Of a stretch of DNA of 64,000 bases, positions 1 through 13,570 are shown piece by piece; within the stretch, counting starts at the first letter, position 1, and every line of letters starts with the position of its first letter. Below the pieces are notes generated by a model. That model searched no databases. It was not told the DNA's origin and was given only the letters and a program-made list of their open reading frames with translations. The stretch is from Microbacterium sp. (lineage in GTDB: Bacteria; Actinomycetota; Actinomycetes; Actinomycetales; Microbacteriaceae), in the NCBI GenBank assembly GCA_019510305.1, contig JAEKKN010000037.1, positions 17,731-81,730 of the forward strand, read 5' to 3'. Made by a program: the position numbers and the translations under genes.

Positions 1-76
1 TCAGATCGAGTCGAAGACGATGGCGAAGCTGCGCCACCCGAGCCGGTCGCAGTCGCTGCGGGACTACCTCGAATGA
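1..76 (+). CDS. rpoD: RNA polymerase principal sigma factor, C-terminal end (partial)
   Basis: Only the last 24 complete codons and the TGA (74-76) are in the window. They read QIESKTMAKLRHPSRSQ and then SLRDYLE, which is the conserved end of region 4.2 of the primary sigma-70 factor of actinobacteria (SigA/HrdB/RpoD). This is the helix-turn-helix part that contacts the -35 element. The stop overlaps the next start codon as ATGA (73-76), so translation of the following ligase gene may be coupled to the sigma factor. Group-1 rather than group-2 assignment rests on the tail and on the neighbouring DUF7455 and parE genes, which commonly sit near sigA in actinobacteria. Confidence 0.88.
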   Translation, partial: QIESKTMAKLRHPSRSQSLRDYLE

Positions 77-1392
77 TGTCGGGCGCACCTCAGGCGCGCT
101 CGGCAGGTATCCGCTACGTCTTCCCCGTCCTCGCGGGGAAGCTCGCGCGGTTCGCCACGCGGCTGCGCGGCGGTGGATCGGCGTTCCCCGGCTATCTGAC
201 CAACCGGCTGGCGCCCACACTGCTCCCGACGCTCGCCGGACAGTTCCGATACGGCGTGGTCTTCGTGCTGGGCTCGAACGGGAAGACCACGACGACCCAC
301 ATGATCAGCGAGGTGCTGCGCGCACACGGGCTGAAGGTGTTCACGAACCCCACGGGCGCGAATCTGCCTCAGGGCGTGACAAGCGCTCTCCTCGCCGACG
401 CCACCCTGACGGGCCGCATCAAGGCCGACGTCGCGGTGCTCGAGATCGACGAGGGCTACGCGGCTGATCTCGCCGACCGGCTCTCACCCGCGGTGATCCT
501 GTCGTTGAACGTGCAGGTCGACCAGCTCTACCGCTTCTACGAGACCGAACGCGTCGCAGACATGATGCTCGAGGCCTCCCAGCGCGCGTCGGCACACGTC
601 GTCGTGAATCGCGACGACCCGTATCTGAGCAAGATCGATGCGAGCGCCATGCGCGGAGAGGTATCGTTCTTCGGCGTATCGAGCGAACTCGTCGCCGCAT
701 CCGCCCACGGCCTCGCCAACGCGGCGGATACGCGCAGCGGCAACGCGGGGATCCTCGACCACGAGGCGTACGCCGAGGTGATCAGCGCCGAGGGGCGCAA
801 GGTGGTCGTGCGTGTGGACGGCACGGATGCGCCGATCACGCTGCCCGCCCGAGGTCTGCACTATGCGGCTGACGCTGCGGCGGCATTGACAGTGGCCTCG
901 CGGGTTCTCGGCGCCGACTTTGCTGTCGACAAGGCGGCGAACGGTTTCGCGAAGATGGCTCCGGCATACGGACGCGGTGAGGTCATCCCGCTGCGCCGCG
1001 ACCCCGCCGGCGAGCAGGTCGAGTTCGTGATGTTCAAGAATGCGCCGAGTCTGCAGATGAATCTCGACGCTCTCGAAACCGCGCCCGAGCGCGCTCTGAT
1101 CGCGATCGACGAGGGCACTCCCGACGTCTCCTGGCTCTACGACGTCGACTTCGACGTGCTGAAGCGCATCGACGTCGTGACCGGCGAGAAGGCGTACCAG
1201 CTCGCCCTCAGCCTCGAGCATGCCGGTGTCGAGATCGGCGTCGTCGAGCCCGACATGGAGAAGGCCGTCGCGCTCATGCGCGCCCTGACGCCCTCGCCGT
1301 CAGGCACCCAGACCTGGTTCGTCAACTACGAGCTGATGATGATCGGGCGACGGCTGCTCGGTCACGGAGATCAGGAGATCGCCCGCCGATGA
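73..1392 (+). CDS. murT: MurT-like Mur ligase (DUF1727 C-terminal domain), divergent, no zinc-ribbon cysteines
   Basis: 439 aa. A Mur-ligase central domain with the ATP loop GSNGKTTTT at residues 67-75 and an acidic motif EIDEG near 124-128 is followed by the DUF1727 domain from about 315. The motif DVSWLYD (351-357) is kept; it holds the Asp that completes the GatD catalytic triad in the known MurT-GatD enzyme. MurT-GatD normally amidates the alpha-carboxyl of D-iso-Glu in lipid II. This copy has no cysteine at all, so the four-Cys zinc ribbon of characterised MurT proteins is absent, and the usual KNPAG motif reads KNAPS (322-326). It overlaps gatD (ATGA, 1389-1392). I infer that ATP activation of a carboxyl is retained but that the second substrate may not be ammonia. 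Family assignment is firm; substrate is open. Confidence 0.88.
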   Translation: MMSGAPQARSAGIRYVFPVLAGKLARFATRLRGGGSAFPGYLTNRLAPTLLPTLAGQFRYGVVFVLGSNGKTTTTHMISEVLRAHGLKVFTNPTGANLPQGVTSALLADATLTGRIKADVAVLEIDEGYAADLADRLSPAVILSLNVQVDQLYRFYETERVADMMLEASQRASAHVVVNRDDPYLSKIDASAMRGEVSFFGVSSELVAASAHGLANAADTRSGNAGILDHEAYAEVISAEGRKVVVRVDGTDAPITLPARGLHYAADAAAALTVASRVLGADFAVDKAANGFAKMAPAYGRGEVIPLRRDPAGEQVEFVMFKNAPSLQMNLDALETAPERALIAIDEGTPDVSWLYDVDFDVLKRIDVVTGEKAYQLALSLEHAGVEIGVVEPDMEKAVALMRALTPSPSGTQTWFVNYELMMIGRRLLGHGDQEIARR

Positions 1393-2171
1393 CCGACACC
1401 GTGCGTATCGTCCAGTTCTATCCCGTCGAGCTCGGCATCACCGGAGACCGCGGCAACGTCCGCGCTCTGCAGGTGCGTCTCGAGCGAGCCGGGGTCCCCG
1501 TCGATGTGGTGCATGTGGGTATCGGCGACCCGCTTCCCGCTGACGCGGACATCCTCGTGTTCGGGAACGGCCCGCTCTCGGCCATGCGCCTGGTCGCAGA
1601 CGATCTGCGGGCGCGCTCGGCGGAGCTCGAAGCCTTCGTCGCCGCCGGCGGTTCGCTGTTCTCGATCGGCGCTTCTGCAGAACTGCTCAGTGAAGGCGTC
1701 GACCTGCTCGACGGCGAGAAGCTCGAAGGCCTCGGCCTCTTCCCGTTCCGAGTCGCACGCACTCGCGAGCGCAACGTCGGCTACATCATCGCCGACACCG
1801 TCGACGGCCGGGTCATCGGTTTCGAGGACCACGCGTCGCGGTGGATGCTCGGAGCGGATGCCGTGCCGTACGGCGCCGTCGTGGCGGGCAAGGGAAGCTT
1901 CGCCCGCGCCGGAGGCGTCGGTGATGAAGACGGTAGCGGCGCAGGCGAGATCGTCCGGCGCGGAGAGGCCTACGCGTCGAACGTGCAGGGTCCGGCGCTG
2001 CCGTTGAATCCGCAGTGGGCGGACGCGATCCTCTCGGCAGTGACCTCGCGTCGCGGTATCGAGTGGTCGGCTGGCGAAGCTCACGCTCATCTGAACGAGT
2101 ACGCTGACGGCGCTCGTGCGGCGATCGAGCACCTCATCCACAGCAAGGACTTCCGTACGATCGGACTCTGA
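1389..2171 (+). CDS. gatD: GatD-like CobB/CobQ-type glutamine amidotransferase homologue lacking catalytic Cys and His
   Basis: 260 aa, the usual GatD length. The class-I amidotransferase fold is recognisable: FGNGP (58-62) near the oxyanion region and the tail motif GPALPLNP (201-208). The nucleophile elbow, normally ICGGYQ, reads IGASAE, so residue 94 is Gly where characterised GatD has Cys94. The catalytic-His motif, normally YLHGP, reads NVQGP, so His is replaced by Gln200. There is no Cys anywhere in the protein. Glutamine hydrolysis by the normal mechanism is therefore not possible. The gene overlaps murT at its start and shares one base with the next gene (TGATG, 2169-2173), so it is kept in a tight operon. 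It may act as a structural partner of the MurT-like protein or may bind a different amine donor. Confidence 0.85.
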   Translation: MTDTVRIVQFYPVELGITGDRGNVRALQVRLERAGVPVDVVHVGIGDPLPADADILVFGNGPLSAMRLVADDLRARSAELEAFVAAGGSLFSIGASAELLSEGVDLLDGEKLEGLGLFPFRVARTRERNVGYIIADTVDGRVIGFEDHASRWMLGADAVPYGAVVAGKGSFARAGGVGDEDGSGAGEIVRRGEAYASNVQGPALPLNPQWADAILSAVTSRRGIEWSAGEAHAHLNEYADGARAAIEHLIHSKDFRTIGL

Positions 2172-2869
2172 TGCTCTCCAGCAGTGCGCTTCCTCGCGCG
2201 GTGATCTCCCGGTCGGCGCTCACCGCGTCGGCCGCCGCGGCCGTCGCGGCCGGAGGCCGCATCGCGGATCTCCGGCGTGACGCGTGGGGGCACGGCGTCC
2301 TCACGGTCGGGCAGGCCGCGCGTGTCGCCGGCATCGCGCACGTGCTGGTCGATTCGCAGAGCGAGGCCGAGGCGCTCGCTCTCGAGGGGATCGATGCAGT
2401 CGTCGACGAAGAGCCCGACATCGATTCGACGCTGCTGTACGGACTGCCCGATGCCGACGGCGTGCTCGCCAGCCGCCCGATCCTGCGTCTCGCCGGGCGC
2501 GTGCTGTCCACGAAGCGGCTGAAGCCCGGCGATGCCGTGTCGTACGGGTACACGCACCGTGCGTCCGAGCACACGGTCGTCGCACTGGTCACCGGCGGCT
2601 ATGCGCAGGGGATCGTGCGGGCGCTCGGGAACAACGCGCACGTCGAGGTCGACGGCGTGGAGCGGCCCATCATCGGCCGTGTCGCCATGGACGTGTGCGT
2701 CGTCGACCTGCAGGGGCACGAGGCGGCCGTCGGCAGCGAGGTCACCTATTTCGGGGGCGTCGGACCGGCCGCTCCAGCGCTGGCGCGTTGGAGCGCGGTC
2801 ACCGGCCTCACCGTCGCCGAGCTCGTGGCAGTGACCGGTTCGCACGCACAGAGGGAGTGGGAAGCATGA
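2171..2869 (+). CDS. alanine racemase-like protein A: catalytic-Tyr domain with a shortened barrel and no PLP lysine
   Basis: 232 aa against about 360-380 for Alr. Residues 12-75 resemble the start of the Alr barrel, but the PLP-lysine motif (normally VKANAYGHG) reads LRRDAWGHG (34-42), with Arg35 at the Lys39 position. About 150 barrel residues are then missing, including the KxDTG, HxxNS and RxG segments. From about residue 102 the Alr C-terminal beta-domain is intact: AVSYG (122-126) with the catalytic-base Tyr125 (Tyr265 in the Bacillus enzyme), GGYAQG (142-147) and GRVAMD (169-174). On its own it cannot form a Schiff base, but it can donate the Tyr that acts in the neighbouring subunit. 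It overlaps the next gene as ATGA (2866-2869). Confidence 0.82.
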   Translation: MLSSSALPRAVISRSALTASAAAAVAAGGRIADLRRDAWGHGVLTVGQAARVAGIAHVLVDSQSEAEALALEGIDAVVDEEPDIDSTLLYGLPDADGVLASRPILRLAGRVLSTKRLKPGDAVSYGYTHRASEHTVVALVTGGYAQGIVRALGNNAHVEVDGVERPIIGRVAMDVCVVDLQGHEAAVGSEVTYFGGVGPAAPALARWSAVTGLTVAELVAVTGSHAQREWEA

Positions 2870-3903
2870 GCCGGCCCGAGCTCCACCTGAGCAGCGAGCA
2901 GTTCATCGCGAACATCGAGGCCGTGCGCACCCGCATCTCACCGTCGGTCCTCATGCTGGTCATGAAGGACGATGCGTACGGGCACGGCATCACATGGGCC
3001 GTGGAGACCGCGCAGCGCGCCGGCGTCGACTGGTTCGGCAGCTACGACGTGGCAGGCGGAGTGGAGATCAGGCGCATCCTCCAGCGACCTGCGGACGTCT
3101 TCGCCTGGGCCACGTCGACGGATTCCGAGATCGACGAGGCGCTCATGCAGCGGATCGATCTCGGCGTCGGCACCGCGGAGTACCTCTCGCGGGTCATCAG
3201 CCGGGCGACGGTTCTCGGCATCCGGGCGCGCGTGCATCTGAAGATCGACACCGGTCTGCACCGCAACGGAGTGCTGTTCGAAGACTGGCCGGCGACCATC
3301 GACGCGGTCCGCGAGGCTGAAGAGGCTGGCGCGCTCGAACTCGTGGGCGTGTGGAGCCATCTCGCCGAGGCGAGCGACGCCGAGGACGACGATGCCCGGC
3401 AGGTGTTCCTCCGCGCGATCACGACCACGGCGGAATCAGGGCCGACGCCGCAATGGCAGCATCTGACGGCGTCCGCAGCCTCGTGGTGGCGCCCCGAACT
3501 CCGGGGGACCCTCTCGCGCATCGGCGCTTTCTGCTACGGCATCCGCTCGGCTGACGGTCCCGAGCTCGAGGGTGTTCTTCCGGTGGCCGAACTGACGGCG
3601 ACCGTGATCGACGTGGTCGACGAGGGCGCGGTGATCTCGATCGGGTCCTTCGACGGTCTGCCGTCCACGCTGGCGGGGATGCCCGTGGGTACTGAGCGGG
3701 GCACGCGGATCGTCGCGTCGATCGACCTCACGACATCGCTCGTGGAAGGCGGGGGACTGGAGGTCGGCGACCGCGTCTGGATCTTCGGCACGGGAACGCA
3801 CGGCGAGGCGACTGCCACGACGCTCGCGGAGCGGATCGACACGGTCGGCGAAGAGATCCTCACCCGACTCACGGCGCGTGTACGGCTAGTGGCCTCGGAC
3901 TGA
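2866..3903 (+). CDS. alanine racemase-like protein B: PLP-lysine barrel, catalytic Tyr replaced
   Basis: 345 aa. The N-terminal alanine-racemase barrel is complete: VMKDDAYGHG (32-41) with the PLP lysine Lys34, KIDTGLHRNG (126-135) with the usually carbamylated Lys126, HLTASAA (199-205) and RIGAF (218-222) with the Arg that faces the PLP ring nitrogen. The C-terminal beta-domain is degenerate: the VSYG motif reads ISIG (257-260), so Ile259 replaces the catalytic Tyr, and no GYADG-like motif follows. It should bind PLP but lacks the second acid/base residue in trans. Protein A, encoded immediately upstream, has that Tyr and lacks the lysine. The pair fits an obligate heterodimer with one complete site. 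The substrate is unknown; with MurT/GatD as neighbours, a peptidoglycan amino acid is the best guess. Confidence 0.85.
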   Translation: MSRPELHLSSEQFIANIEAVRTRISPSVLMLVMKDDAYGHGITWAVETAQRAGVDWFGSYDVAGGVEIRRILQRPADVFAWATSTDSEIDEALMQRIDLGVGTAEYLSRVISRATVLGIRARVHLKIDTGLHRNGVLFEDWPATIDAVREAEEAGALELVGVWSHLAEASDAEDDDARQVFLRAITTTAESGPTPQWQHLTASAASWWRPELRGTLSRIGAFCYGIRSADGPELEGVLPVAELTATVIDVVDEGAVISIGSFDGLPSTLAGMPVGTERGTRIVASIDLTTSLVEGGGLEVGDRVWIFGTGTHGEATATTLAERIDTVGEEILTRLTARVRLVASD

Positions 3904-3910
3904 GCGGACG

Positions 3911-3932
3911 GTTCAGGAGCCGGCTCCTGAAC
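3911..3932. terminator. perfect 22-bp palindrome, probable bidirectional terminator
   Basis: The arms gttcaggagc and gctcctgaac flank a central cg, giving a fully self-complementary sequence 8 bp after the stop of racemase-like gene B. It lies between that gene and the convergent DUF7455 gene. There is no T-tract, which is common in high-GC actinobacteria. Confidence 0.6.
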
Positions 3933-3944
3933 CTGACGACGAAC

Positions 3945-4160
3945 TCAGGCCTCGATGAGGCGGGCAGTCTCGTCGTGCCAGCTGGTGGCGATGCTGCGGA
4001 GCTTCTCTTCGTACTTGCGGCCGTGGTGGGCGCAGAAGAGCATCTCGGTGCCATTGACCTCGGCGGCGATGTACGCCTGTGCGCCGCACGAGTCGCAGCG
4101 GTCCATGGCGGTCAGCCGGAACTCTACGGCGGAGGCCTCACGTTCGGTCGTTGCATTCAT
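3945..4160 (-). CDS. DUF7455 family small zinc-ribbon protein
   Basis: 71 aa. It has CDSCGAQAY (residues 22-30) and LFCAHHGRKYEE (41-52), which is the signature of the DUF7455 family: a CxxC pair and a C/H pair that probably bind one zinc. Genes of this family lie beside the principal sigma factor and parE in many actinobacteria, as here. The function is unknown; size and cysteines suggest a protein- or nucleic-acid-binding zinc ribbon. The gene is monocistronic and diverges from parE. Confidence 0.85.
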   Translation of the reverse strand: MNATTEREASAVEFRLTAMDRCDSCGAQAYIAAEVNGTEMLFCAHHGRKYEEKLRSIATSWHDETARLIEA

Positions 4161-4328
4161 CTCGGTGCCTCCTTGAGTGTCGGGTTCGCTGTCGGGACTT
4201 GATCAATACAACCACGCGGAGCCTGGGTGCATGCCCGGATCACGGCGTGTTTCGCTCAGCGCGTACGTCCGGGGCCCCAGGTGGCTCCGTCAGGGGAGTG
4301 TCTGCGGCTCACAGCGGGGTCCGACGAA

Positions 4329-4334
4329 TAGACT
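4329..4334 (+). promoter_or_regulatory. -10 element TAGACT of parE, leaderless start
   Basis: TAGACT ends 8 bp before the GTG start of parE, so the expected transcription start falls at or within 2 nt of the start codon. A GGAG at 4336-4339 is probably too close to the 5' end to be used if the mRNA is leaderless. Confidence 0.5.
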
Positions 4335-4342
4335 CGGAGATT

Positions 4343-6427
<2,085 letters not shown>

Positions 6428-7448: not shown

Positions 7449-9896
7449 TCAGACGATCGTGCGGCCGATCGATCCGATCACGCCGTCGATGGGCTGGCCC
7501 GAAGCGTCTCGGCGGGCACCCGGCTCGGGCAGCTTGCGCACGGCGCCGGTCGGGTCGACGGCGAGAGCCGGAGAAGGTCCGACCCACGCGACCGTCAGGC
7601 GGTCCTCGCCCTTCAAGAACGCGTGCGCCCTGACGCCACCCGTGGCACGTCCCTTCGCGGGGTACTCGGCGAAGGCGGAGACCTTGGCCCGGCCGGGGTC
7701 GGTGCCGGGGAGGATGCTCTCTCCGCCCGAGACCGTGGCGACGACGGCATCCGCGTCAGGGGTCACGACGCCGAAGAACAGCACCGACGCACCCGCGCCA
7801 AGCTTGATGCCGGCCATGCCGGCGGCCGGAGCTCCCTGCGGGCGCACGGCGGATGCCGTGAACCGCAGCAGCTGCGCATCGGTCGTGACGAACACGAGTT
7901 CGGCTTCGTCGGGTGCCTCGGCGGAGCCGACGACTGTGTCGCCGGCCTTCATGCCGATGACCTCGATCTCCGGGCGTACCGGCAGCGTCGAAGGGACGAT
8001 GCGCTTGACCGTGCCCTGGGCCGTGCCGATCGCGACCGGCGTCTCGCTGTCGAATCGCACGAAGCCGACGATCCGCTCGCCTCGCGCGGTGATGCCGAGA
8101 TAGTCGCGCAGCGGCGTGCCGGCGGCGAGCTGCACAGAGCTGGAGGGCACCGACGGCAGGTCGACGGGGGAGAAGCGCACCACGCGCCCGGCGCTGGTCA
8201 ACGCGCCGAGCTCGGCGCGCACAGTCGTCTCGACGGTCGTGAGGATCGCATCGTGCTTGCTGCGGCGGGCGGGTGCCGAGAGCTCCTGGCCCTCGGCGAG
8301 GTCGACCCGCACCGCTCGACCGGTGGTCGACAGCACGAGAACGGTCGGTGCGTCGGCGATCTGCAGGTCGGGTGCGCCCTTCGCCGCGCGCGGCTTCGGC
8401 GGAGCGGCGTTCATGAGCAGCGTGCGCCGCGGGGTGCCGTATGCGTCGGCCGCGGCGTCGAGCTCGCTCGCGACCGCCGCACGCAGCCGTGCCGGGCTGC
8501 CGAGAAGTTCTTTCAACGCGGCGATGTCGGCGAGCAGGGCGTCGCGTTCGGCCTCGAGCTCGATGCGGGAGAACTTGGTCAGACGGCGCAGGCGCAGTTC
8601 GAGGATGTACTCGGCCTGCAGTTCGCTGAGATCGAACACCGACCGGAGTCGGGCGCGGGCCTGTTCGGAGTCATCCGAGGAGCGGATGACCTGGATGACC
8701 TCGTCGATGTCGAGGATCGCGATGAGCAGACCCTCGACGAGGTGCAGGCGCTCCTCGCGGCGGGCGAGCCGGTACCGGCTGCGGCGTGTGATGACCTCGA
8801 GACGGTGCATCACGTAGACGCTGAGCATCTCCTTGAGACCGAGCGTGCGCGGCTGCCCGTCGACGAGGGCGACGTTGTTGATGCTGAAGGAGTCCTCCAG
8901 CGGGGTCAGCCGGTACAGCTGCTCGAGCACGGCGTTCGGATCGAAGCCCGTCTTGATGCCGATGGAGACGCGCAGGCCGTGGTTGCGGTCCGTGAGGTCG
9001 GTCACATCGCTGATGCCCTGCAGCTTCTTGGACTGCACGGCGTCGCGGATCTTCTCGATCAGACGCTCGGGTCCGACCATGTAGGGAAGCTCGGACACGA
9101 TGATGCCTGTGCGACGCGGTCCGATCTGCTCGACCGACACCTTGCCGCGGACCTTGAGCGCGCCGCGGCCGGTGGTGTACGCGTCCTTCACGCCGTCGAG
9201 GCCCATCAGGATGCCGCCGGAGGGGAAGTCGGGACCGGGCACGAACTCCATGAGCTCTTCGGTCGTGGCGTCCGGGTTCTCGAGCAGATGCGTGGCTGCG
9301 GCGACGACCTCGATGAGGTTGTGCGGTGCCATGTTTGTCGCCATGCCCACCGCGATGCCGCTGGCGCCGTTGACGAGCAGGTTGGGGAAGGCCGCGGGGA
9401 GGACGGCGGGCTGCTGGAACTGACCGTCGTAGTTGGGGATGAAGTCGACGACGTCCTCGTCGAGGTTCTCGGTGAGCGCCATGGCGGGCGACGCCAGCCG
9501 AGCTTCGGTGTAACGGGCGGCAGCGGGGCCGTCGTCGAGCGATCCGAAGTTGCCGTGACCGTCGACCAGCGGAACGCGCAGCGCCCAGTCCTGCGCGAGT
9601 CGTACCAGGGCGTCGTAGATCGCCGAATCGCCGTGCGGGTGCAGCTTTCCCATCACCTCGCCGACGACGCGGGCGCTCTTCACATGACCACGATCGGGGC
9701 GCAGGCCCATCTCGGCCATCTGATACAGGATGCGGCGCTGCACAGGCTTGAGACCGTCGCGCGCGTCGGGCAGGGCGCGCGAGTAGATCACCGAGTAGGC
9801 GTACTCGAGGAACGAGCCCTGCATCTCGCTCTCGAGGTCGATGTCCTGGATTCGCTCCGGGGCGAGCTCGGGCGGCGGGGTTTTCGGCATGGCCAT
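7449..9896 (-). CDS. parC: DNA topoisomerase IV subunit A
   Basis: 815 aa. The winged-helix/tower domain has [10 protein letters not shown] (quinolone region, with the susceptible-type Ser and Asp kept) and [10 protein letters not shown], whose Tyr is the DNA-linking nucleophile. The C-terminal beta-pinwheel contains repeated strands of the type [13 protein letters not shown] and [20 protein letters not shown]. It forms an A2B2 enzyme with ParE and cuts and reseals both DNA strands. It is convergent with the arginase-like gene and divergent from the broken phosphodiesterase. Assignment to ParC rather than GyrA follows from its proximity to parE; gyrA lies near dnaA in actinobacteria. Confidence 0.94.
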
Positions 9897-9952
9897 CCTG
9901 GAAATGTTGCAGAGGCTGAAGGGCGCGGGGAGCCTGTGACAGACTGGCTCGG

Positions 9953-10932
9953 ATGTCCCTCATGCTACCGTCCGAGTCGCCCACGGCCCGGAGCATCGTC
10001 GGGGTGGCGGGCGACCTGTTCGCCGCTCTCCGCGGCGAATCCGCGACGCTGCCGCGGGCGGAGTCCGTCGTGCTCGTCCTGATCGACGGCCTCGGGGCGA
10101 TCAGCCTGCGCGCGCATGCGGGTCACGCCCGGGCGCTGACGGCAGGCATGGCGAAGAAGGACGTCGCCTCCTCGGTGTTCCCGTCGACCACGGCCGCGGC
10201 TCTGACGAGCATCCTGACCGGTGTGTGGCCGGGCGAGCACGGACTCGTCGGTTACAGCGTGCTGGACCGCTCTCGAGGCGTCCTCGTCAACCAGCTCTCC
10301 GGATGGGAGAGCTCCGGCGTCGATCCCGCGTCCTGGCAGGTCGCGCCCACGGTTTTCGAGCAGGCGGCAGCCGACGGACGCCCCGTGTTCGCGGTGGGCG
10401 TCGCCGCCTATGCAAGGCCGGCCACAGACACGGAATCGCGTCCCGCCAGTGGGTGTCGGCACTGGAGGACGTCGACGCCGCCCTGACGCGCCGTGTTCCT
10501 CCCGGCGTCGGGGTGATCGTCACCTCCGACCACGGGATGGTCGACGTACCGGGGCACAAGCAGGTGGTGCTCGAGTCCGAGCATCTCGTCAGCGTGAGCA
10601 GCATCGGCGGCGAGCCGCGCATGCTGCACGTGTATCTCGACCCCGACGTCGATGCCGCCGAGATACTCTCGCGCTGGCGACGAGATCTCGACGGCGCCGC
10701 CGACGTGGGAGGCCGTGCCGAGACGATCGCGTCGGGTCTGTTCGGCCCGACGGTGACGGAAGCTGCGGCGTCACGGATCGGCGACCTGCTGGTCGTCGCG
10801 CGGGGTAACGGAGCGGTGTACGACGGCACGGCGGCTGATCAGCGCAGCCGCGGCATGGTCGGCCAGCACGGTGGTCTCACACCGGAGGAACGACAGGTGC
10901 CGTTGCTGCGATTCGGGGCGTTCGCCCGCTGA
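9953..10932 (+). pseudogene. alkaline phosphatase-superfamily phosphodiesterase, broken by an internal deletion/frameshift
   Basis: The N-terminal part (frame from 9953) has VLVLIDGLGAISL and FPSTTAAALTSILTG, the metal-binding Asp and nucleophile Thr of nucleotide pyrophosphatase-type enzymes. The frame runs to AAYA at about 10413 and then departs into unrelated codons, stopping at 10486. Just there another frame resumes the family sequence: KAGHRHGIASRQWVSALE, TSDHGMVDV and GQHGGLTPEE, to the TGA at 10932. The segment between, normally 40-60 residues holding the PExD metal motif, is missing. The best explanation is a deletion with its junction at about 10413/10414 that also shifted the frame. 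A sequencing error would change the frame but not remove the segment. A -10-like CAGACT lies 7 nt before ATG 9953. Confidence 0.8.
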
Positions 10933-10985
10933 GCCGCCGTCGCTCGGTCTGTCGCCGAGGTGCGGCAGTCACTCGAACGCGACGG

Positions 10986-12020
10986 TCACTCGTCGGTGCG
11001 CGCCCCGAAGACGATCTCGTCCCACGACGGCATCGCGTTGCGACGACGACGGCGACCGTTGTCCGGTGCAGGCTCGGGAGCGGGCGGAGGCTGCTCCTCG
11101 TCGTCCTGATCGTTCTCCAGCGCGTCGAACAGGGCGATCGGGCTGGAGTCTTCCGCCTCGACGTCGTCATCGAGATCGATGATGGGGGAACTCTCGCGCT
11201 GGCCACGCCGGCGTCGCAGGGCCTCGAGCAGGTCGGCGGTTTCAGGGCTGGTCGTCTGAGACTCAGGAGCGCGTTTGATGGCGGCATCCTGCACAGCCGA
11301 TGCCGATCTCTCCGGCAACGAGGGATCCTCGATCTCGGCTTCGGGTGTCGGCACCAGACGCGGACCGAAGGCGCCGGAATCGAAACGGCTGTCGTCCTTG
11401 TACGGGGATGCTGTGCGCTCGGCCTCAACCGCGCGCAGCCGAGGGATGAGACCTTCGGGCAGCGACCCCTGCCTCGAGAGCTGGGTGGCGTCGGCGTTCA
11501 GCGGCGCGAGTGCGCTACGGCGGGGATCGAAGCTCCATCGTGCGTCATGTTCGACCTCGTTCGCGGTGAACTCGAGCTTGATGATCCATCCGCTTTCGTC
11601 CTTCCAGCTCGCCCAGCGCTCCGCCGTCGCCTCGAGATCGGCGAGCTTGGCTCGGATCGCCGTCCCGAAGGTGGGCTGTGCGTCGGGTTCGACCTCGCTG
11701 CCGATGAGAACAGGGACGGCGAGGGCCTGTCCGATGATGTGCTCGCGCTCGGCGAGGACCGGACCCTCGAAGCGGATGACGTCGTCGACGCCGATGCCGA
11801 GGAGTTCGGCGACCTCGGGAGCCGTGAGTCCGGCGCGGATCTGCGCCTGGATGTCGCGCGGGCTGGCCGCGAGTTTCTGCACGACCGGCTCGCCCTGGCG
11901 TGTCGCGCGACGGATCTCGCGGTGCAGCACGTCGTCGATGGGCAGCGCGAAACGCGCGCCGGATTCGGTCGCGAGTACGAGGACTCCTGCTTCAGTGCCG
12001 ACGATGGTGACGTTTTCCAT
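10986..12020 (-). CDS. sepH: SepH-like septation protein (DUF3071)
   Basis: 344 aa starting MENVTIVGTEAGVLVL. The conserved N-terminal domain (about 1-170) contains a helix-turn-helix (LTAPEVAELLGIGVDDVIRFE) and the DUF3071 fold. The C-terminal 170 residues are Asp/Glu/Pro/Arg rich and low in complexity, ending RRRRRNAMPSWDEIVFG, the short conserved C-terminal motif of the family. In Streptomyces and mycobacteria SepH binds FtsZ and promotes early division. A longer reading frame continues upstream to a TTG at 12155, but conservation begins at ATG 12020, which has a GAGGGG ribosome-binding site. Confidence 0.92.
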   Translation of the reverse strand: MENVTIVGTEAGVLVLATESGARFALPIDDVLHREIRRATRQGEPVVQKLAASPRDIQAQIRAGLTAPEVAELLGIGVDDVIRFEGPVLAEREHIIGQALAVPVLIGSEVEPDAQPTFGTAIRAKLADLEATAERWASWKDESGWIIKLEFTANEVEHDARWSFDPRRSALAPLNADATQLSRQGSLPEGLIPRLRAVEAERTASPYKDDSRFDSGAFGPRLVPTPEAEIEDPSLPERSASAVQDAAIKRAPESQTTSPETADLLEALRRRRGQRESSPIIDLDDDVEAEDSSPIALFDALENDQDDEEQPPPAPEPAPDNGRRRRRNAMPSWDEIVFGARTDE

Positions 12021-12221
12021 GCGAATGCCCCTCAGGAATGGGTGTTCGCCCATGGTGTCACGCCGGTTCCACAGCAGGCGGGAATACCCTGGGCGTGCCG
12101 TCAGTTTGCTCAGTCGCACGAGGCGACATTTGCGAAATCTCTCGCGGTCGTGCAAACTATGGCCGCCGAACCCTGCGGCACAACTCCCACCACTCGCACC
12201 ATGAAAGTGGAGAACTACCCC

Positions 12222-12515
12222 ATGGCAACCGATTACGACGCTCCCCGAAAGAGTGAAGACGACTCCGAGTCGATCGAAGCCCTCAAGGAGCGTGTGCCGG
12301 ACAAGCTGTCAGGCTCGTCCGGCGATGAGGACTCGGACAACCCGTCCAGCTTCGACCTTCCCGGTGCCGATCTGTCCGATCTCGAGCTCGATGTCGTCGT
12401 GCTGCCCGCGCAGGATGACGAGTTCACCTGCATGAGCTGCTTCCTGGTGAAGCACCGCTCTCAGCTCGACCACGAGGGCTCGTCCGGCCCGATCTGCAAG
12501 GAGTGCGCTGCCTGA
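12222..12515 (+). CDS. DUF4193 zinc-ribbon protein
   Basis: 97 aa. The N-terminal half is acidic and probably disordered. The C-terminal half has FTCMSC (Cys70, Cys73) and ICKEC (Cys92, Cys95), four ligands for one zinc ion. This family is nearly universal in actinobacteria and lies next to sepH, DUF3093 and dut, as here. The function is unknown. ATG 12222 is preceded by GGAG at a good distance; an in-frame ATG at 12201 would add MKVENYP and seems less likely. Confidence 0.88.
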   Translation: MATDYDAPRKSEDDSESIEALKERVPDKLSGSSGDEDSDNPSSFDLPGADLSDLELDVVVLPAQDDEFTCMSCFLVKHRSQLDHEGSSGPICKECAA

Positions 12516-12537
12516 CCGCAGCGTCGATACACGCGTC

Positions 12538-12569
12538 ACGCGCCCAGGACCTCACGGTTCCGGGCGCGT
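12538..12569 (+). terminator. hairpin after the DUF4193 gene
   Basis: acgcgccc (12538-12545) pairs with gggcgcgt (12562-12569) around a 16-nt loop that can itself pair (gacc/ggtt). It lies 23 bp after the DUF4193 stop, between it and the convergent DUF3093 gene. No T-run. Confidence 0.45.
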
Positions 12570-12607
12570 CGTCGTATCCGGGCGCACTCCGAGGGCGAGG
12601 CGCGCGG

Positions 12608-13090
12608 TCAGGAGTCGGCGGACGCCGACTCGCGTGCCGCCCGAACAGCCGCGGCGAGGCGGTCGGGTGTGCGAGACGAAATGGTCCACGACTCGACGGG
12701 ATCGTCTTCGTCGGTGTTCGGCACGACGATCAGTCCGTCGATCCCGCCGCGGATCAGGTGCCAGCCCCGCGCGGGCAGTCGCGGACCGCGCGCCTGCCGC
12801 GCCTCGTCTCCCGTGAGCACCTCGGGTTCGCCGAGGAATCTCGCGTCGATGTGGGCGCGTCCGGCGCGCAGCACGGAGCCGTCCACCGCCACCACGGGGG
12901 TGAGCCAGACGAACATCGCCACGAGGGCTGCGGAGACCGCGCCCCCTGCGACCAGGGCGATCGTTGAGCCGACTGGCGCGAATACGAGCGACACCATGGG
13001 GCCGGCGAGTGCGACGGTCACCAGAAGCCGGAGGCTCGGCGACAGCCGTTCGCGATACTGCGGACGTGTCTCAGCGGTGCGGTTCTGCAT
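12608..13090 (-). CDS. DUF3093 family membrane protein
   Basis: 160 aa. Two hydrophobic segments, about residues 20-42 and 44-65, are followed by a soluble domain with LTPVVAVDGSVLRAGRAHI and ARGWHLIRGGIDGLIVVP, the DUF3093 pattern. Role unknown; it is a standard member of the sepH-DUF4193-DUF3093-dut block. It diverges from dut with 12 bp between the start codons used here; an in-frame ATG at 13099 would add three residues. Confidence 0.86.
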   Translation of the reverse strand: MQNRTAETRPQYRERLSPSLRLLVTVALAGPMVSLVFAPVGSTIALVAGGAVSAALVAMFVWLTPVVAVDGSVLRAGRAHIDARFLGEPEVLTGDEARQARGPRLPARGWHLIRGGIDGLIVVPNTDEDDPVESWTISSRTPDRLAAAVRAARESASADS

Positions 13091-13096
13091 TAGCCT
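13091..13096 (+). promoter_or_regulatory. -10 element TAGCCT of dut, leaderless start
   Basis: TAGCCT is followed by exactly 6 nt and then GTG 13103, so the predicted transcription start is the first base of the start codon. The same 6-nt spacing recurs at other genes in the window. Confidence 0.55.
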
Positions 13097-13102
13097 CATG
13101 GG

Positions 13103-13570
13103 GTGACTGAATCGGTTGACGTCCCCATTATCGCCCCTGTGCTCGATGGACTCGCTGTCGTGCCCGGTTACGCGCACCCCGGCGATGCAGGCGCCGACCT
13201 CGTCGCAGCCGTCGCCGTGCACCTCGAGCCGGGGGAGCGCGCGCTGGTCGAGACCGGAGTCCGCATCGCTCTGCCTGAGGGCTTCGCGGCCTTCGTGGTG
13301 CCGCGCAGCGGCCTGGCCGCCAAGCACGGCATCTCGATCGTGAACTCGCCCGGGACCGTCGACGCGGGGTATCGCGGAGAGATCAAAGTGAGTCTGATCA
13401 ACACCGATACCCGCAGCGCGTACGATGTCGCCGTCGGCGATCGCATCGCCCAGCTGATCATCATGCCGGTCACCCGAGCGACGTTCATCCCCGTCGAGGA
13501 GCTCCCCGAGAGCACCCGCGGCGAGGGCGGATTCGGGTCCACCGGATATCAGGCAGCACCCCACCAGTAA
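13103..13570 (+). CDS. dut: deoxyuridine 5'-triphosphate nucleotidohydrolase
   Basis: 155 aa, trimeric dUTPase. All five motifs are present: GDAGADL, PRSGLAAKHG, GTVDAGYRGEI (catalytic Asp and uracil-specific loop), DRIAQLII and the flexible C-terminal RGEGGFGSTG. It hydrolyses dUTP to dUMP and pyrophosphate, keeping uracil out of DNA and feeding dTMP synthesis. GTG start, probably leaderless. The following DUF3710 and DUF3159 genes are so close (18 bp gap, then a 4-bp overlap) that they form one operon. Confidence 0.97.
   Translation: MTESVDVPIIAPVLDGLAVVPGYAHPGDAGADLVAAVAVHLEPGERALVETGVRIALPEGFAAFVVPRSGLAAKHGISIVNSPGTVDAGYRGEIKVSLINTDTRSAYDVAVGDRIAQLIIMPVTRATFIPVEELPESTRGEGGFGSTGYQAAPHQ

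Follow-up and report, generated by a model that had tools for sequence, protein, structure and literature searches.

How the bridge amino acid of group B peptidoglycan comes to be attached to D-Glu is a question raised by a locus at the start of a 64,000-nucleotide stretch of Microbacterium sp. DNA (contig JAEKKN010000037.1, positions 17,731 to 81,730; G000:C25:17731-81730), here called the window. Group B peptidoglycan is characteristic of the Microbacteriaceae and has long been used in taxonomy, and its cross-bridge requires the alpha-carboxyl of D-Glu. In the open-licence literature, as distinct from subscription journals and preprints, we found no paper naming the enzymes for bridge attachment on D-Glu. 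The window, whose source belongs to the genus Microbacterium going by named relatives, carries genes for a MurT-like ligase, a GatD-like protein and two racemase-like proteins, RacA and RacB. We propose, with a probability of about 70%, that the slot they occupy between rpoD and a parE/gyrB-type gene holds the ligase for coupling the bridge amino acid to the D-Glu alpha-carboxyl, in many cases accompanied by a racemase. The set found in the window is one of several alternatives for the group B bridge and not a universal enzyme set.

A MurT-GatD pair with lost and retained residues

The preliminary description of this DNA reported four serially overlapping genes at 73-3903, and this arrangement stands. 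On the plus strand, the gene of the MurT-like ligase (73..1392, 439 amino acids) overlaps that of the GatD-like protein (1389..2171, 260 amino acids) by 4 bases, which in turn overlaps racA (2171..2869, 232 amino acids) by 1 base, and racA overlaps racB (2866..3903, 345 amino acids) by 4. Another 4-base overlap joins the ATG of the ligase gene to the stop of rpoD, the primary sigma factor gene, of which the 3' end lies at 1..76 on the plus strand and the remainder upstream of the window (L002:6503-7807). The downstream border of the slot is the parE/gyrB-type gene (4079..6427, plus strand), with its start codon not settled.

In Pfam, the ligase matches Mur_ligase_M and MurT_C, the latter family having this single match in the genome, and its partner matches GATase_3. 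Using phmmer, both proteins match solved MurT and GatD chains. The AlphaFold model of the ligase (predicted local distance difference test, pLDDT, 82.6) has MurT chains as its closest PDB relatives, with other Mur-type peptide ligases next. The scores against NCBIfam equivalog models lie far under the cut-offs, with 113.5 and 101.5 against 800 for the MurT-like ligase and 62.7 against 400 and 62.3 against 450 for the GatD-like protein.

The residues indicate what may have been lost. The ligase retains the P-loop (from 271) and the K-N pair (from 1036) and has Val (517-519) at the position where an amidating MurT has the gate residue Arg135. The GatD-like protein retains His148 (1830-1832) and Asp20 (1446-1448) of the triad, and Gly94 (1668-1670) occupies the place of the catalytic Cys. 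Two earlier claims, a MurT that keeps ATP activation and a GatD that cannot release ammonia, are thus consistent with the residues at both sites. In the Streptococcus pneumoniae complex, Arg135 of MurT closes the gate towards GatD, according to the pertinent part of PMC6085368. The change from Cys to Gly in the window is the same as in Staphylococcus aureus GatD C94G, for which sections of PMC3266927 report that glutamine-dependent amidation is abolished and ammonia-dependent activity is kept at pH 8.5. The same sections state that S. aureus MurT needs GatD as a partner even with ammonia. Therefore, a GatD without its Cys beside an intact ligase site is mechanistically sensible.

The loss is not peculiar to the window. 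GatD matches occur in 86 of 120 Microbacteriaceae genomes at 89 places; 80 of these were fetched and 8 left unread, and together with the window (L002) this gives 81 family loci. The Cys column of these loci reads G in 52, A in 12, C in 12, S in 2 and T, N and H in one each. Since the state without Cys recurs in 69 of the 81 loci, it is not a chance event. Outside the family, 46 places of the order matched with E < 1e-50, and 45 were read, one being left out. A check of these for the degenerate residues, as had been suggested earlier, found the Cys in 45/45 loci from nine families, which we take to have group A walls. Within this comparison, Cys loss was seen only in Microbacteriaceae. The gate residue follows the same pattern. 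The Arg135 position, mapped onto the rows by motif, is R in 36/36 Cys-bearing rows and in 20/20 further ones, and the gate Arg is missing from 68 of the 69 Microbacteriaceae rows without Cys (R once, K once). Loss of the four-Cys zinc ribbon of MurT was considered as a marker and rejected, as it does not discriminate: the ribbon is absent from the window, from 10/12 Cys-bearing family rows and from most non-family rows, including most Cys-bearing Micrococcales rows.

The MurT-GatD-like pair might still form the D-Glu amide, drawing on free ammonia now that the Cys is gone, and both the behaviour of C94G at pH 8.5 and the intact ATP site would permit this. We consider it improbable, because the gate Arg disappears together with the Cys and racemase genes are linked to the pair in 21/81 family loci and in most named Microbacterium loci. 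Unrelated amide ligases moreover replace the pair in its slot, as set out below, and group B bridges require the very D-Glu alpha-carboxyl.

One slot, several ligases

The MurT tree of the family separates two Cys-bearing clades, A (2 loci) and B (10), from two clades without the Cys, C (23) and D (44, including the window), in addition to two long outliers. The slot belongs to the latter clades: rpoD lies beside murT/gatD in 66 of 67 clade C and D rows, the exception (L107) being a short stretch, and parE lies within the fetched stretch in 64 of 67. In the fetched stretches of clades A and B, no rpoD or parE was seen (0/12 rows). Some loci deserve separate mention. L106 (G029) has a highly divergent MurT-like/GatD-like pair at 2987-5304 between rpoD and parE, with His at the Cys position. 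In L219 (M. halotolerans), gatD is followed at 8171-13232 by long minus-strand genes that by eye resemble DnaE2 and ImuB, and a RacA match lies just past these, provided that this contig and C2 of G728 are identical. L095 (G015, contig of 927,303 bp) comes from a 0.93-Mb reduced genome in which the MurT-GatD-like slot persists together with a racemase pair, a hint that the set is not easily dispensed with.

A MurT match (profile A1) is found in 98/120 Microbacteriaceae genomes against 38/198 Microbacterium genomes. In 17 of 20 loci read upstream of parE in genomes that do not have the Cys-less type of MurT, the slot holds a CofE-like gene, X, accompanied by an ATP-grasp gene, Y, in 14 of the 17 and by racA and racB in 12. 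Pfam assigns X to PF01996 (3/3 tested) and Y to PF14397 (2/2 tested); a sequence search gave no convincing solved relative for either. Between rpoD and parE in the other 3 of the 20 loci, no gene was recognised. These empty slots are L330-L332 (G016, G019 and G014), and G014 and G016 carry a Cys-bearing MurT-GatD elsewhere.

In Microbacterium, MurT and X exclude each other. Among 198 Microbacterium genomes, compared by hand from the complete lists of matching genomes, 38 have only MurT, 159 only X, none has both and one has neither, and X sat at the same rpoD-parE slot wherever a Microbacterium locus was read. In the 120 family genomes X occurs in 17 and coincides with MurT solely in G053, where X-like, four-Cys MurT-like and Cys-less GatD-like genes adjoin (L104, 4411-7209); the fetched stretch of this locus showed no rpoD or parE. 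The distribution of Y is similar: in 35 genomes searched, it is present in 6/6 of the X type, once away from the slot, against 0/29 of the window's ligase type. Class-wide, X matches 11 of 296 genomes, five in Microbacteriaceae with E < 1e-120 and six outside with E between 1e-40 and 1e-69. In L408 and L409 (G632, G130) an X-like ligase shares one open frame with what by eye is an asparagine-synthetase-like part, and in L410 and L413 (family f38) X-like genes adjoin, again by eye, a gene resembling a MurJ-type flippase.

The kinship of X with CofE, which adds Glu to F420, leads to the thought that the slot makes an amide product other than peptidoglycan, such as a cofactor tail, a capsule or a small peptide, and the frame that X-like genes outside the family can share with an asparagine-synthetase-like part points the same way. 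We hold such a product to be a distant prospect. The start of the ligase gene overlaps rpoD, the slot is widespread in the family, down to the 0.93-Mb genome, and lipid I and lipid II are known MurT substrates (as given in parts of PMC3266927).

Lysine and tyrosine on separate racemase chains

In Pfam, RacA matches Ala_racemase_C and RacB matches Ala_racemase_N and C. RacA has lost most of the barrel and kept the motifs of the C-domain, and its model (pLDDT 94.6) matches alanine racemase chains; for RacB, the racemase fold is supported by sequence alone. Alanine racemase is a homodimer in which the Tyr is donated across the interface. In the window, the Lys that binds pyridoxal phosphate (PLP) and the catalytic Tyr lie on separate polypeptides: RacA has Arg35 (2273-2275) and Tyr144 (2600-2602), and RacB has Lys34 (2965-2967) and Ser261 (3646-3648). 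This complementary decay recurs in other pairs. We compared 74 complete pairs from 76 loci, leaving out two loci with racB only; the counts are not independent, as some rows come from one genome or close relatives (e.g. L036, L237). The PLP Lys is present in one partner and absent from the other in 74/74 pairs; we named its bearer RacB. The Tyr is in RacA in 67/74 and in RacB in 12/74, so that in 58 pairs RacB carries the Lys and RacA alone the Tyr; nine have Tyr in both, three in RacB only and four in neither. RacA and RacB thus probably form a heterodimer with one live active site. The earlier claim of a racemase pair that could supply a D-amino acid holds in so far as the genes are linked to those of the ligases, and needs amending in that the pair looks like one composite enzyme.

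At the slot, the pair is present in 21 of the 81 Microbacteriaceae loci, all in clade D. It also accompanies X in 38 of 48 further Microbacterium loci; of the ten without it, three have two Y genes and one is cut before parE. A RacB tree, a quick one with 35/89 forks starred, mixes loci of both ligase types and implies at least 15 changes of type, which suggests that ligases were apparently swapped while the racemase stayed at the slot. The rpoD tree, drawn without L394 (no usable rpoD), gives 15 changes, indicative only as 10/86 forks are starred and most are weak. A second RacA/RacB-like match pair was noted in the Agreia genomes G737 and G738, on a different contig from the strongest RacA match.

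Where clade D lacks the pair at the slot, racemases are mostly found elsewhere. Seventeen such genomes tested comprise 11 with tandem full-length racemase genes, one with RacAB at another place, two with two unlinked racemase genes and three with a single gene. The ten tandem pairs fetched have the Lys in 20/20 copies and the Tyr in 19/20, and the tandem is present in 6/6 named Curtobacterium genomes tested; Curtobacterium walls contain D-ornithine (D-Orn). A single racemase gene is the state of 9/10 clade C genomes and of each of five X-type genomes without RacAB.

The ligase of the window might then use Gly or an L-amino acid as the residue attached to D-Glu, with RacAB serving a later or different step. 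Clade C, with no racemase pair at its slot and mostly a single racemase gene per genome, would fit this, as would the first position of Gly in B1 walls. Clade D fits it less well: its MurT-like ligase has RacAB at the slot in 21/44 rows, the tandem covers most of the further genomes just described, and the absence of Y from all 29 genomes of this ligase type also stands against it. We therefore regard this alternative as unlikely, although it deserves more weight than the two considered above.

Wall chemistry

Only a few named species tie the slot to a wall type. All four proteins are present in 6/6 named Agreia loci; the named loci with the MurT-like ligase were scanned with two peptide patterns among the best 80 of 103, and absence there is uninformative. 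The wall of Agreia has L-diaminobutyric acid (L-DAB) joined to D-Orn, as far as the relevant portion of PMC5945732 goes. For Microbacterium species, the part of PMC10757982 that lists wall diamino acids gives D-Orn, L-Lys or DAB, a range that fits, at genus level only, a RacAB pair that is common and not universal. A review names Gly and D-Ser on the D-Glu alpha-carboxylate in other genera and, in its section on this linkage, leaves the enzyme unnamed (PMC11555704).

The idea with which the analysis began, that the four-gene set builds the group B branch, survives in part. Family-specific loss of Cys and Arg, the racemase linkage and the D-Orn of Agreia all speak for it. The set is not the sole one: it is absent from 160/198 Microbacterium genomes, and 159 of these 160 have a different ligase. 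A simpler rule, by which presence of the set means an ornithine wall and absence a lysine wall, was dropped in view of these 160 genomes and of the 38/48 X loci that carry RacAB.

A proposed bridge-forming ligase

The common slot, the mutual exclusion of unrelated ligases, the racemases kept beside them and the loss of ammonia chemistry are together better explained by a ligase that forms the bridge than by an amidase. We propose that, in a muropeptide precursor, the slot ligase would couple the D-Glu alpha-carboxyl to the first amino acid of the bridge, making the bond by which group B peptidoglycan is defined. The MurT-like ligase would activate the carboxyl with ATP as MurT does and accept an amino acid, through its amine, in place of ammonia, and the GatD-like protein, its glutaminase chemistry lost, would remain as a structural partner. 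RacA and RacB would form a heterodimeric PLP enzyme, with the Lys from the RacB barrel and the Tyr from the RacA C-domain, supplying a D-diamino acid, most likely D-Orn in the organism of the window. Elsewhere, the CofE-like ligase would do the same job, in most cases alongside one or two ATP-grasp ligases, and either with RacAB or without it. Clade D may thus transfer a D-diamino acid, and clade C and the X loci without RacAB may transfer Gly or an L-amino acid. The more specific picture, of a fixed chromosomal slot filled interchangeably by unrelated ligases, several of them served by a novel type of racemase, an obligate RacA-RacB heterodimer whose single composite site arose when duplicated alanine racemases decayed in complementary ways, has in our judgement even odds.

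Several observations weigh against the proposal. Lacisediminihabitans profunda has the full set including RacAB, yet its wall is B1-alpha with DAB according to the portion of PMC7033078 on its wall, a poor fit to a D-amino-acid bridge, and the tie between slot and wall type draws on few named species. Six of the 120 family genomes have neither ligase, and ten carry a Cys-bearing MurT-GatD and no other candidate ligase; the slot was empty in the two of these ten that were examined. Ten of the 98 MurT-positive family genomes match partially (E 1e-21 to 1e-52; two of the ten were read). On the side of the racemases, Phe replaces the Tyr of RacA in 7/74 pairs, the four pairs mentioned above have no Tyr at all, and 3/17 clade D genomes have no extra racemase.

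If the proposal holds, it would provide concrete candidate genes for bridge attachment on D-Glu, and the content of the slot would predict which species have D- or L-bridges. It suggests how silencing the glutaminase partner can convert an amidotransferase into a peptide ligase. RacA and RacB, for their part, would offer a case from nature of two copies that have decayed into one shared active site.

Comparison with known systems

The closest known system is the MurT-GatD lipid II isoglutaminyl synthase of S. aureus and S. pneumoniae, which shares with the window the Mur-ligase domains, the ATP site and the adjacent GatD gene. Unlike this enzyme, the window pair has neither the GatD Cys nor the MurT gate Arg, and it has racemases attached. 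RacA and RacB share their Pfam domains with alanine racemase (Alr), and the RacA model matches Alr chains, whereas the Lys and Tyr of RacAB lie on two proteins and the RacA barrel is mostly missing. X resembles CofE (F420-0:glutamate ligase, PF01996) in matching F420_ligase above the Pfam cut-off, but it scores far below the CofE cut-off (28.4 against 180.65) and has different neighbours. A ligase working together with a racemase on a D-amino-acid bridge is not without precedent, since in Enterococcus faecium and Lactococcus a D-aspartate ligase and an aspartate racemase build such a cross-bridge. This likeness is one of overall design and not of compared sequences; the ATP-grasp ligase of that system acts on the side chain of the lysine at position 3, and not on D-Glu.

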